A stretch of DNA of 35,615 nt from Micrococcales bacterium (lineage in GTDB: Bacteria > Actinomycetota > Actinomycetes > S36-B12 > UBA5976): NCBI GenBank assembly GCA_024640585.1, contig JAHEEQ010000003.1:12141-47755 (forward strand). The letters run 5' to 3'. Under the pieces are notes generated by a model, which saw only the letters and a program-made list of their open reading frames with translations, was not told the DNA's origin and did not search any database. Positions 19,011-25,940 of this stretch are shown one piece after another. Numbering within the stretch: position 1 is the stretch's first letter; every line of letters starts with the position of its first letter. A program made the position numbers and the translations under genes.

Positions 19011-20055
19011 TATGTCACAACTGCGTTTAATTACGCAAAGTCTCGATATGCCACTTGAAAGTATTATTCCGCCAATCGAAGAAGCGCTAATGATTGCTTA
19101 TCTGCGATTAAAAGGTGCCATCACTGATACACCGAATCCAGGTGAGTTTATTTCTTATTATGTAGATGGAAAGCGGGTTCGAGTAGTTCTAGATCTTGAA
19201 CTTGGATCTGTGAGTGTTTTATTGACTGAAAAAGATGCTGACGGGAATTATCTCGGCGAGATTGATGACACACCAGATGGCTTTGATCGCATAGCAACCC
19301 AAACAACACGTAAAGTATTGGCAGATAAATTCAGAAAAGTTACTGACGCTGCGCAGATTCTTGAACTCGAAAATCAAATTGGCACAATGGTCAACGGAAT
19401 AATTCAACAAGGCTCAGATCCGAAAATGGTTTTCGTAGACCTTGGGAAAATTGAAGCGCAAATGCCACCGGCCGAACAAGTACCAACAGAAAAGTATGTA
19501 CATGGTGCGAGGCTTCGCGTGATTTTGGTTGCAGTTCGCCAGCTCAACAACGGTATGGTCGCTGTTGTATCTAGAACTCACCCAGCATTGGTTAAACAAA
19601 TGTTTGCGCTAGAAGTTCCAGAAGTTGCCGATGGCACAGTCGAGATTGTTGCCGTAGCTCGCGAGGCTGGAGCTCGAACAAAAATCGCGGTGCAAAGTCA
19701 CAATCCACAAGTTGCGGCAAAAGGAAGTTGTATCGGGCCAATGGGTGCTCGGGTTAATGCTGTAGTCAACGAACTCAATGGCGAGAAAATCGACATCGTG
19801 GATTATTCAGATGATCCAGCAAAATTCTTGGCAGCCGCATTAGCTCCGGCGCGGGTTGCGCGAGTGGATATAACCGACCTCGAAGCCCGTCACGCTCGAG
19901 TGTTCGTGCCAGATTTTCAGCTCTCGCTAGCCATTGGCAAAGAGGGGCAAAATGCACGGCTCGCAGCCCGATTAACTGGCTGGAAGATTGATATTCGCTC
20001 GGATGCTGACCCTTCCTACTCACAAACGGCTCAAATGCCACTAAATCAGGGGTAA
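19000..20055 (+). CDS. nusA: Transcription termination/antitermination factor NusA
   Basis: A 351-residue RNA polymerase-binding factor controlling pausing, termination and antitermination. The ATG at 19000 gives MKIDMSQLRLI, matching the start of actinobacterial NusA; an ATG four codons later is possible but fits less well. Domains in order are the RNAP-binding N-terminal domain (about 1-125), S1 (about 130-195), then KH1 and KH2. The KH region shows KGSCIGPMGARVNAVVNELNGEKIDIVDY and LAIGKEGQNARLAARLTGWKIDI. There are no C-terminal acidic repeats, as in other actinobacteria. It overlaps rimP by 11 bases and is followed five bases later by ylxR. Confidence 0.97.
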   Translation: MKIDMSQLRLITQSLDMPLESIIPPIEEALMIAYLRLKGAITDTPNPGEFISYYVDGKRVRVVLDLELGSVSVLLTEKDADGNYLGEIDDTPDGFDRIATQTTRKVLADKFRKVTDAAQILELENQIGTMVNGIIQQGSDPKMVFVDLGKIEAQMPPAEQVPTEKYVHGARLRVILVAVRQLNNGMVAVVSRTHPALVKQMFALEVPEVADGTVEIVAVAREAGARTKIAVQSHNPQVAAKGSCIGPMGARVNAVVNELNGEKIDIVDYSDDPAKFLAAALAPARVARVDITDLEARHARVFVPDFQLSLAIGKEGQNARLAARLTGWKIDIRSDADPSYSQTAQMPLNQG

Positions 20056-20060
20056 CATTC

Positions 20061-20315
20061 GTGCAAGCTGATTCAAATCTGCCACTTCGCACCTGTGTGG
20101 GGTGTCGGAAACGTTCAGCCAAAAAAGGTCTTGTACGCCTTGTCCTCATCGGCTCGCAATTGCAAGTGGATGAAGATGCAAAGCAGGATGGTCGAGGTGC
20201 CTATGTGCATCACAGTCTTGAATGTTTTGAAATGGCCCTGAACCGCTTTGCCTTCGATCGAAGTTTTCGAAAGAAAGTAGACGCGTCAGAAGTGCAAAAC
20301 TTTTTTCGTCCATAA
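20061..20315 (+). CDS. ylxR: YlxR/RnpM family small RNA-binding protein
   Basis: An 84-residue basic protein with the YlxR (DUF448) signature: RTCVGCRKRSAKKGLVRLV at the N terminus and DGRGAYVHHSLECFEMAL in the middle. The GRGAYVH motif and the fixed position between nusA and infB are diagnostic. The Bacillus homologue has been reported to bind and modulate RNase P (RnpM). The start is GTG at 20061 with AGGGG eight bases upstream. It is separated from infB by a 134-base leader containing three linked mini-ORFs. Confidence 0.92.
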   Translation: MQADSNLPLRTCVGCRKRSAKKGLVRLVLIGSQLQVDEDAKQDGRGAYVHHSLECFEMALNRFAFDRSFRKKVDASEVQNFFRP

Positions 20316-20345
20316 CCACTCATACGCAAACGGAGCGTGTCAGGA

Positions 20346-20415
20346 ATGAAATCCCGATGAGTACCAAATGAGTACGTCCAAAATGGTCGTACTTTCAAAG
20401 GCGCCTGGTTACTAG
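20346..20415 (+). promoter_or_regulatory. infB leader: three mini-ORFs linked by ATGA overlaps
   Basis: Three tiny reading frames follow one another. The first, 20346-20360, encodes MKSR. The second, 20357-20371, encodes MSTK. The third, 20368-20415, encodes MSTSKMVVLSKAPGY. Each stop overlaps the next start as ATGA, the arrangement used for termination-reinitiation. GGAG at 20332-20335 lies ten bases before the first ATG. ATGAGTAC is repeated at 20357 and 20368, exactly 11 bases apart. AGTACG (20371-20376) can pair with CGTACT (20388-20393) across the third frame. The last stop is 34 bases upstream of the infB TTG start. The pattern is seen directly; translation and a regulatory role for IF2 are inferred. 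Confidence 0.55.
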
Positions 20416-20449
20416 TTTTTAGTTCTCCGGGCCGAACAAGGAAGAGACA

Positions 20450-23158
20450 TTGTCTAAGGTCCGGATCTATGAGATCGCAAAAGATCTCGGTGTTGATAGC
20501 AAAGTTGTAATTGCCAAACTCGCAGAGTTAGGTGAATTCGTCAAAGGTGCATCTTCATCCATTGAAGCCCCAGTTGCTCGAAAACTCCGAGCAGAATTTC
20601 CTGATGCACCAGCTGCACCAGTTGAATCAAAACCTGCTGCAAAAAAAGTTGCGAAAAAAGCAACTAAAGTTGAAAAAGCAGAAGTAGAAGCACCAGCCGA
20701 AGTTGAAACTCCAGTTGCGCAGCCAGAAATTTCAAAACCTGCTGCAGAAAAACCAGACTTGCCTAAAGGCCCAGCGCCAGCCACTTTCAGTGCGCCACCA
20801 ACACCTGGAAAACCTTCAACACCACCAGCTTCAAATCCAGGATCCATGCCGCCACGTCCAATGGGACCTCGCCCGGGAAACAATCCGTTTGGAACTTCAG
20901 GTTCTGGCATGGGTCGCGCCCCGCGTACTGGTAACAATCCATTTGGAACTTCTGGTTCAGGTATGGGTCGAACATCAGACCGACCTGCTCGTGAAGGCGG
21001 TCGCGATGGAATGCCACCTCGTCCAGGTAGCCGTCCAGGTGGACCAGGGGGTGCTCGTCCAGGCGGCGCCCCAGGGACTAGGCCAGCAGGCGCAGGACGC
21101 CCAGGTGGTTCAGGCGGTCCAGGTGGAGCTCGCCCAGGCGGCGGTTCGCGCCCAGGAGGATTCCCATCAACTGGTGCTCCAGCAGGTGGTCCACCACGTC
21201 AAGGTGCAACCGGTGGACGCGGCAACGCAGCAGGTGCATTTGGTCGCGGCGGTAAGCCAGGCGGATCGAAAGCTAAGAAATCAAAGCGTACAAAGCGTCA
21301 AGAATTCGACAACCTGACGGCTCCAGTTCTTGGTGGTGTTTCAATCCAACTTGGTGGCGGAGCAACAGTTCGTCTACCACGTGGTGCATCTCTTACAGAT
21401 TTCGCTGAAAAGATTGGTGCAAATCCAGCCGCACTTGTAACTATTATGTTCAAGCTTGGCGAAATGGTTAATGCAACCCAATCAGTTGATGACGACACAC
21501 TAAAACTTCTTGGAAGTGAACTTCAATATGAAGTTGAAGTTGTTTCACCTGAAGAAGAAGATCGTGAATTGCTCGAATCCTTCGATCTTGAATTCGGTGA
21601 GACAGATGAAACCGAAGAAGATCTTTCACCTCGCCCACCAGTAGTAACTGTCATGGGTCACGTCGATCATGGTAAGACTCGTTTGCTCGATGCAATTCGT
21701 AACACAAATGTGGTCGCTGGTGAAGCCGGCGGAATCACACAGCACATCGGTGCATACCAAGTCATTACCCACCACGAAGGTATTGAACGCGCACTTACAT
21801 TTATCGATACTCCTGGTCACGAAGCGTTTACCGCTATGCGTGCCCGTGGTGCGAAAGTAACTGACATTGCAGTGTTGGTTGTTGCTGCCGATGATGGTGT
21901 TAAGCCACAAACGATTGAAGCATTGAATCACGCGCAAGCTGCTGATGTTCCAATTGTGGTTGCAGTCAACAAAATTGATAAAGAAGGTGCAGACCCTATG
22001 AAGGTTCGCAGCCAATTAACTGAATACGGTTTAGTGGCTGAAGAATTCGGTGGCGATGTTATGTTCGTCGATGTTTCAGCTCGCAGAGGTGACGGAATTG
22101 CAAACTTGCTCGATGCAGTTTTGCTAACTGCAGATGCTGCAATCGATTTGCGTGCAAATTCAACAACTGATGCACAGGGTATTGCGATTGAAGCGCATCT
22201 TGACCGAGGTCGTGGACCGGTTGCAACCGTGCTTGTGCAGCGCGGAACTTTGCGGGCTGGAGACTCCATTGTTGCTGGTGAAGCATTTGGTCGTGTTCGT
22301 GCGATGCTAGATGAAAACGGAAATCAGTTGACAGAGGCTGGCCCATCCCGAGCTGTACAGGTGCTGGGTCTAAACACCGTGCCAGGTGCGGGAGATTCAT
22401 TCCTAGTTGTTGCTGAAGACCGAATTGCACGTCAAATCGCACAAACTCGTGCAGCTCGCGAACGAAATGCCCAACTTGCTAAGCGTCGCGCTCGTCGCAC
22501 ACTTGAAGACTTCTTGGCTTCGGTCGAAAAGGGTGACGTGCAAGAACTGAAACTCATCTTGAAGGGTGACGTTTCTGGTTCTGTTGAAGCACTCGAAGAT
22601 GCACTTCTAAAGATCGATGTTGGAAACGAAGAAGTTGAACTTCGCGTAATCCACCGCGGTGTTGGTGCGATCAACCAAAGTGACGTCACTTTGGCTGCAG
22701 CATCAGATGCAATCGTCATCGGCTTCAACGTGCGCCCTGAAGGACAGGTTCGTGACTTGGCTGATCGTGAAGGAGTTGAAATTCGTTTCTACTCGGTCAT
22801 TTACGCAGCAATTGAAGAAATCGAACAAGCCCTCAAAGGCATGCTTAAACCTGAATTCGTCGAATCTGAATTGGGTACAGCTGAAGTTCGTGAAGTCTTC
22901 AAATCATCTAAGGTCGGAACAATCGCTGGTTGCATTGTTCGCAGCGGAACCATTAAGCGAAATACCAAAGCTCGTTTGGTTCGCGATGGCATCGTAGTTG
23001 CAGACAATCTAACTATCGATTCATTGCGCCGCTTCAAAGATGACGCAACCGAAGTTCGCGAAGGATTCGAGTGCGGTATTGGACTTGGAAGCTTCAATGA
23101 CATCAAACCTGAAGACGTTATTGAAACATGGGAAATGAAAGAAAAGCCTCGCGCTTAA
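20450..23158 (+). CDS. infB: Translation initiation factor IF-2
   Basis: A 902-residue GTPase that brings initiator tRNA to the 30S subunit. The start is TTG at 20450 with AAGGAAG just upstream, giving [18 protein letters not shown], the conserved IF2 N-terminal domain. A long low-complexity region (about residues 50-280), rich in Gly, Pro, Arg and Ala, separates it from the core and contains a tandem 14-residue repeat. The G domain shows [12 protein letters not shown] (about 398-409), DTPGHEAF and NKID. Domains II-IV follow, ending with [20 protein letters not shown], typical of the C2 domain that binds formyl-Met-tRNA. The extended N terminus is usual in actinobacteria. rbfA follows after 25 bases. 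Confidence 0.97.
20876..20971 (+). repeat. Tandem 14-codon repeat in the IF2 linker
   Basis: Codons for [14 protein letters not shown] occur twice, at 20876-20917 and 20930-20971, separated by four codons (A-P-R-T). The period is 54 bases. The two DNA copies differ mainly at third positions while the peptide is identical, so the protein sequence appears to be maintained rather than freshly duplicated. Confidence 0.85.
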
Positions 23159-25865: not shown

Positions 25866-25940
25866 GTCTTAGGGTCGGTCCTCGGTAGTGGCATTCGAAA
25901 TAATTTCGCGTGCTTCGATCGACGATTCGATCCAAACGGA
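25866..25940 (+). ncRNA. Probable Actino-pnp leader RNA
   Basis: The segment GGGTCGGTCCTCGGTAGTGG (25872-25891) followed by nested hairpins lies directly upstream of pnp. GCA/TGC encloses CGAAA-TAA-TTTCG (25896-25908), and GATCG/CGATC is at 25917-25932. The location and the sequence match my recollection of the published Actino-pnp RNA motif found before exoribonuclease genes in actinobacteria. A covariance-model search was not possible here. It is presumed cis-regulatory. Confidence 0.6.

Follow-up and report, generated by a model that had tools for sequence, protein, structure and literature searches.

Amino-acid attenuators of the trp, his and leu type use leader peptides, and the autocontrol of IF3 acts through the AUU start of infC. 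To our knowledge, the way in which IF2 levels are set outside E. coli has been little studied, and the reinitiation work known to us has mostly used engineered gene pairs. Reading frames that overlap in ATGA or TGATG, with the downstream frame depending on the upstream one, have been described (PMC6728339; PMC11260477), and reporters of an actinobacterial gene showed termination–reinitiation at an AUGA overlap (PMC11260477); in the available parts of these two sources, the overlaps join genes, or one uORF and a gene. The infB leader analyzed here has the same kind of overlap but differs in its arrangement, with two overlaps in series and three frames, mostly of 4–7 codons, none of which overlaps the gene. 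Mycobacterial small ORFs share with it the RTGA junction and the phylum; they differ, in the portion of the report available, in being 5–50 amino acids long and joined directly to annotated genes (PMC4633059). No description of a mini-ORF chain before infB appeared among the matches listed in full-text searches of open-licence papers. In a paper on E. coli infB and cold shock, the words leader, autoregulation and feedback are confined to the reference list, and uORF is absent altogether; nor is infB mentioned in the main text of two mycobacterial ribosome-profiling papers (PMC4633059 among them).

Results

Three coupled mini-ORFs lie between ylxR and infB

The window analyzed is a stretch of 35,615 nucleotides from a Micrococcales bacterium, with a G+C content of about 45%, in which the genes rimP, nusA, ylxR, infB and rbfA follow in this order. 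The earlier note, made from the letters of this DNA, had described three ATGA-joined mini-ORFs (MKSR, MSTK and a 15-mer) 5' of infB; read letter by letter, the description is exact (Table 1). So is the repeat 11 bases apart: the window contains exactly two copies of ATGAGTAC, one at 20357 and one at 20368. The hairpin said to overlap the third frame is predicted, at 20370–20394, and was not seen by eye in related leaders. With its 15 codons, mini-ORF 3 of the window exceeds the usual 5–7 codons.

Table 1. Features of the ylxR–infB region, in positions of the window
Feature	Positions	Strand	Basis or remark
ylxR (DUF448), upstream neighbour	20061..20315	+	Pfam PF04296, E 9.8e-21
Purine-rich SD-like stretch 5' of mini-ORF 1	20332..20345	+	GGAG 20332-20335, AGGA 20342-20345; predicted anti-SD -9.5 kcal/mol
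Mini-ORF 1, MKSR (ATG AAA TCC CGA TGA)	20346..20360	+	letters read; equivalent position in class leaders
Junction 1, ATGA: mini-ORF 1 stop overlaps mini-ORF 2 start	20357..20360	+	letters read
Mini-ORF 2, MSTK (ATG AGT ACC AAA TGA)	20357..20371	+	SD weak or absent, anti-SD -4.3 kcal/mol
Junction 2, ATGA: mini-ORF 2 stop overlaps mini-ORF 3 start	20368..20371	+	letters read
Mini-ORF 3, 15 codons (MSTSKMVVLSKAPGY, stop TAG)	20368..20415	+	anti-SD -2.2 kcal/mol; runs over arm A
Arm A (GCCTGG), predicted pairing with 20427-20432	20403..20408	+	predicted fold
Arm B (TCCGGGCC), alternative partners A or C	20426..20433	+	predicted 8-bp helix with C
Probable infB Shine-Dalgarno (AAGGAAG)	20438..20444	+	letters; anti-SD only -5.2 kcal/mol vs mean -8.3
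infB (IF2), TTG start at 20450	20450..23158	+	IF2_N, GTP_EFTU and IF-2 domains
Arm C (GGTCCGGA), infB codons 3-6	20458..20465	+	native vs swapped pairing tests

Read-through from ylxR into the chain was rejected, because the ylxR of the window ends with TAA at 20313–20315, 30 nt 5' of mini-ORF 1. Rfam covariance models gave no match in 20250–20550 at E-values up to 5, and a known RNA family was therefore rejected for the leader. The sole match in the window above the gathering score is an Actino-pnp cis-regulatory RNA (RF01688; 57.7 bits) at 25874–25931, as would be expected of actinobacterial DNA. No terminator-like site was found on the plus strand of the window between 19900 and 20700 (related leaders were judged by eye), and an intrinsic terminator or a terminator-based attenuator was rejected for the window, there being no hairpin with a U-run between the chain and infB. 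A scan for sigma-70-type promoters gave no plus-strand site at 19900–20700, which is weak evidence, and the overall fold of the window leader is no more stable than those of its shuffles (z −1.14).

The chain is conserved in the class Actinomycetes

The comparison of leaders among relatives that the earlier note had proposed was run: junctions and short frames are kept class-wide, while sequence, peptide and length vary. For this, 153 genomes were drawn evenly from the class of Microtetraspora glauca (G002; class Actinomycetes). A search with an IF2 N-terminal query found a match in 140 of them, and all 140 leaders were read; the 13 genomes with no infB match were left out, one of which, G012, has the chain in L210. 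A chain was defined as two or more coupled junctions no further than 200 nt from infB, with no frame longer than 7 codons. By this definition 138 of the 140 class leaders have one; in the controls the frequency was 188/5600 for dinucleotide shuffles and 43/5306 for random 200-nt genomic windows. When only RTGA junctions were counted the figure was 127/140, and the addition of TGATG and TAATG junctions brought it to 138. Among non-redundant leaders (shared 6-mers under 35%, n = 57), 55 carry the chain. Two coupled frames are visible by eye in both exceptions, L360 and L386. The two coupled frames of L386 are longer; with frames limited to 7 codons it counts as lacking a chain, and it was left out of the mini-ORF statistics and of the later analyses; L360, with a single junction, was left out of the anti-SD energy means. 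A chance origin of the chain was rejected by the shuffle and genomic controls and by the RTGA spacing given below.

The earlier note had also mentioned similar repeats before infB in Streptomyces, and a scan of named genomes for ATGAGTACNNNATGAGTAC bears this out: at least 119 stretches were found, at least 104 of them directly 5' of infB and at least 15 not adjoining infB by the pattern used. Titles were available for 80 of the at least 119 stretches, 68 of which lie before infB (62 Streptomyces, 3 Kitasatospora, and one each from Peterkaempfera, Yinghuangia and Microtetraspora). The units in the named genomes, mostly Streptomyces, are MSTR, MSTR, MSTPMK or similar. The peptides found in the class are varied and include MSTR/MSTQR/MNSPQQ, METK/VNGSK/MRPVRD, MSTP/VKSR/MTMRHS and MRKI/MKLK/MSSFRL/MRSYN. 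Chains of the last type, with four coupled mini-ORFs, occur in seven small genomes of 1.3–2.2 Mb (L328, L329 and L336–L340). The leader of Microtetraspora glauca (L051) is of the Streptomyces type, unlike those of most other sampled lineages, and a mislabel or a transfer is possible.

The frames, rather than the letters, are kept

Without any assumption of frame, the spacing between neighbouring RTGA motifs in the non-redundant leaders is 2 modulo 3 in 113 of 118 cases (8 nt in 3, 11 in 53, 14 in 48, 17 in 6, 20 in 2 and 23 in 1); in the shuffle control it is so in 266 of 732. The best chains of the 140 leaders contain 312 four-nucleotide and 14 one-nucleotide overlaps, and coupling is kept while the junction type changes to GTGA, TGATG or TAATG. 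The leaders thus hold the stop–start overlaps (ATGA, TGATG) of termination–reinitiation coupled ORFs and, like uORF attenuators, conserved short leader ORFs (138/140; spacing 113/118). Mini-ORFs start with ATG (161) or GTG (6). The codon before the junction is CGA in 82 of 111 cases, compared with 17% of 265 shuffled junctions, a preference suggestive of a role for the last tRNA or for the base context. In 51 of the 56 non-redundant leaders, mini-ORF 3 is 5–7 codons long. The distance between its stop and the start of infB is 33–66 nt in 138 of 140 cases (139 leaders from the class plus the window, where it is 34 nt). At the level of sequence there is good support for the chain itself, for its conservation throughout the class and for selection acting on the frames.

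In mini-ORF 1 of the class leaders, conservation is not confined to the start and stop codons (ATGAGCRCNCGATGA), according to a profile of 41 leaders that were chosen for 11/14 spacing, whose invariant junction columns are a product of that choice. Many leaders also have a GGAAGCAGGTCGAGA-like stretch 5' of mini-ORF 1.

The chain adjoins infB and appears confined to the class

The pattern ATGANNNNNCGATGANNNNNNNNCGATGA has 49 matches in the 153 genomes, one per genome, all beside infB when compared by eye, and its reversed control has none in the same genomes. That the pattern is found only beside infB (49/49) points to IF2 as the regulated quantity. In a sample of the phylum, ylxR was present in 234 of 396 genomes and the best 145 of the 234 loci were analyzed; five listed loci were left out, four near contig ends and one already in the set (L120). 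The infB start was located in 136 of the 145. At least two junctions are present in 31 of these 136 leaders; 28 have a class-type infB with the chain nearby, and in the other three the junctions lie 115–171 nt from infB and are probably due to chance. The remaining 105 have no chain, and 8 of them best matched the class-type infB query. The chain would thus seem restricted to the class Actinomycetes, with class judged from the type of infB. L220, L238, L243, L257 and L259 have no triple chain; in these leaders the infB start itself overlaps (GTGA) the end of a short frame, for example VRSESA, and coupling of infB to a uORF may take a different form.

Mini-ORFs 2 and 3 are almost without Shine–Dalgarno sequences

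Over 56 leaders, the mean anti-SD energies are −2.4 kcal/mol for mini-ORF 2, −2.0 for mini-ORF 3 and −8.3 for infB, and an energy of −6 kcal/mol or better is reached by 1/56, 0/56 and 54/56 of them, respectively. A purine-rich stretch precedes mini-ORF 1, but its mean (−5.8 kcal/mol) is no better than that of its own shuffles (−5.7). The near-absence of an SD is consistent, if indirectly, with mini-ORFs 2 and 3 being hardly translatable except by ribosomes stopping at the preceding stop.

A predicted RNA switch follows the third stop

The likely output device, absent from the earlier note, is an RNA switch of three arms, A, B and C, predicted 3' of the third stop. Arms A and B form a hairpin closely 3' of stop 3; in 48 of 57 leaders, the window included, the z-score of its fold relative to mononucleotide shuffles is less than −1.5. 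A second complementary partner of arm B lies in codons 3–6 of infB (arm C), and the B:C helix would loop out the SD and the start of infB. The duplex between the leader and the infB start is more stable for native than for swapped partners (−21.9 versus −18.7 kcal/mol), and the longest helix between the leader and codons 3–6 is longer (8.2 versus 6.9 bp), with 0 of 20,000 permutations in each case; in a control with six stretches deeper in infB, native and swapped values differ by at most 0.13. Permutations ignore kinship, and the telling evidence is therefore compensation in lineages with an altered arm C. Compensated B:C pairs are GGTCCGTGT with ACACGGACC in L251, GCTCAGGGTT with GGCCCTGAGC in L359 (which has no clear A:B hairpin), GGTCCGCGTC with GACGCGGACC in L306, GGCCCGCG with CGCGGGCC in L385 and GGTCCGCG with TGCGGGCC in L339.

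A B:C helix of at least 8 bp is found in 40 of the 54 testable non-redundant leaders, three of the 57 having been dropped from the B:C tests for lack of the K.RV anchor. Such a helix is missing in 14 of the 54, including most of those with AGKARVHE, KTR, KPR and KER infB starts. Arm C is variant in 29 leaders; in 14 of these the native C does better than the common one, in 9 it does worse and in 6 the two are equal. Results were weak in two tests that took the position of B from the A:B fold, where 92 and 1057 of 20,000 permutations reached the native value, probably because the register of A:B shifts by a base or two. Taken with the compensatory changes, which support B:C in several lineages, these comparisons suggest that the A/B/C switch is supported in part. 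In the AGKARVHE-type leaders L369, L371, L374, L236 and L266, arm B (CCTC) could, by eye, pair with the infB SD (GAGG) a short way 3' of it, which would be a different way of closing the infB start; in L263 and L370, of the same type, the pairing of arm B with the SD is poor.

In free RNA of the 40 leaders with a B:C helix, B is predicted to pair upstream with a probability of 0.40 and with C of 0.37. Blocking the RNA up to 12 nt beyond stop 3, in imitation of a terminating ribosome, raises the mean probability of B:C in these leaders from 0.37 to 0.72; for single leaders, it rises by more than 0.2 in 20 and falls in 2, and several B arms are probably misassigned. In the window the change is small, from 0.61 to 0.75. 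The predicted unpaired probability of the infB start region is 0.52 in naked RNA, 0.52 with a block at junction 1 and 0.56 with one at stop 3, and shows no closing, a result that lends the switch no support; from junction 1 to stop 3 it rises by more than 0.05 in 13 of 59 rows, in which two leaders are counted twice, and falls in none. No drop is seen because the infB start sits in the B:C loop, and it would be by this loop around the start that initiation is blocked.

Discussion

The comparisons suggest that infB is preceded by a translated cis-regulatory leader that would act as an initiation attenuator and exert negative feedback on IF2; on the sequences compared, we regard this as an even bet. 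To the fuller reading, of a class-wide attenuator in which serial restarts gauge initiation capacity and report it to infB through the three-arm RNA switch, we give a probability of roughly 0.4. We infer that the mini-ORFs are translated in cells, that the control on infB would be negative and that IF2 would be the quantity sensed. Ribosomes would load at mini-ORF 1 and terminate after a few codons, and onward passage would be possible only by reinitiation at the overlapping start, twice, without help from an SD. Because reinitiation needs IF2 and fMet-tRNA, the share of ribosomes reaching stop 3 would drop steeply at low initiation capacity. A ribosome at stop 3 would cover arm A and leave arm B free for C; the B:C helix would enclose the infB start region in its loop, and less IF2 would be made. 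Where reinitiation fails, A:B would form first and the infB start would be open. With IF2 limiting reinitiation, the outcome would be negative feedback, and the two serial restarts would make the response steep. In work by Karimi from 1998, short peptidyl-tRNAs were reportedly ejected by IF1 and IF2, which would counter the feedback model.

A sensor of initiation capacity had been put forward in the earlier note, as a reading of the letters, and this interpretation is, overall, partly supported. It fits findings from E. coli, where overproduction of IF2 raised reinitiation, reinitiation requires formylated initiator tRNA, and the authors suggest that reinitiation may depend on IF2 to a greater extent than initiation de novo (PMC2268962, in its available part).

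The chain could also hand ribosomes on to infB, with A:B bringing stop 3 near the infB SD, so that more IF2 would lead to more IF2. It has been proposed that short frames in a leader, close to the gene start, boost expression by reinitiation (PMC4833913, from the part available), overlap-based coupling is documented (PMC6728339), the A:B hairpin is well supported (48/57 leaders) and a ribosome placed at stop 3 does not reduce the predicted accessibility of the infB start region. However, stop 3 and the infB start are 33–66 nt apart, where the upstream junctions overlap; most leaders have a strong SD for infB itself (54/56); and the B:C complementarity would be left unexplained. We consider such positive coupling rather unlikely. 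Somewhat less likely again is that the chain senses another state, be it the charging or formylation of initiator tRNA, release or recycling factors, peptidyl-tRNA drop-off or initiation antibiotics. The junctions do require termination, plus fMet-tRNA for the restart; in E. coli, peptidyl-tRNA commonly drops off early, in a mean of 10.5% for the dipeptides measured (PMC10192219, in the section available); and the strong preference for CGA before the stop would suit a sensor of this kind. The site, however, is found only beside infB in the pattern search (49/49). Translation of the leader may serve mainly to shield the mRNA from Rho or ribonucleases, much as the two-codon minigene of axe-txe is thought possibly to act by mRNA protection (PMC8708949, available in part), but exactly coupled tiny frames and B:C pairing would then be unexplained, and we find this quite improbable. 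Finally, a repeated site for an RNA- or DNA-binding protein, made of 11-nt direct repeats with the frames as a by-product, is hardly credible and was rejected, for all that copies of ATGAGTAC recur at an interval of 11 nt in both Streptomyces and the window and that mini-ORF 1 has extra conserved positions, because the spacings shift by multiples of three and the repeat sequence is almost wholly changed in some lineages (METK/VNGSK/MRPVRD) while starts and stops are kept.

An initiation attenuator at infB would be of interest in several respects. The leader presents a natural chain of putative reinitiation sites, found class-wide from Streptomyces to small-genome lineages and adjoining the gene of the very factor that reinitiation needs. 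If the reading is true, the message of this regulatory leader is its start and stop codons, not its peptide, and it closes a feedback loop in cis for IF2. It would be a direct readout of initiation capacity, would account for the conservation of some of the smallest reading frames of bacteria, and would offer a compact part with which to measure or control initiation.

Such an attenuator can be set against several known systems. As in the trp, his and leu attenuators, the position of a ribosome on a translated leader ORF would select between competing hairpins. It differs from them in that repeated sense codons are replaced by a chain of starts and stops, and in that the output appears to be translational, with no terminator-like site on the plus strand at 19900–20700. 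The axe-txe minigene mg2 is likewise a very short ORF with an effect in cis on a downstream gene; it has two codons and, in the available part of the source, neither an overlap chain nor a link to an initiation factor (PMC8708949). With mgtQ the infB leader shares an intra-operon small ORF, alternative stem–loops and control over translation of the next gene, but mgtQ, in the portion of that report available, is a single ORF with acidic residues that promotes translation of mgtB, an effect of opposite sign (PMC8092293). The autocontrol of IF3 offers a parallel of another kind. There, too, the gene of an initiation factor is governed by the step at which the factor itself acts; at infC this is start-codon discrimination at the gene's own start, without leader ORFs, whereas at infB it would be reinitiation along a chain of them.
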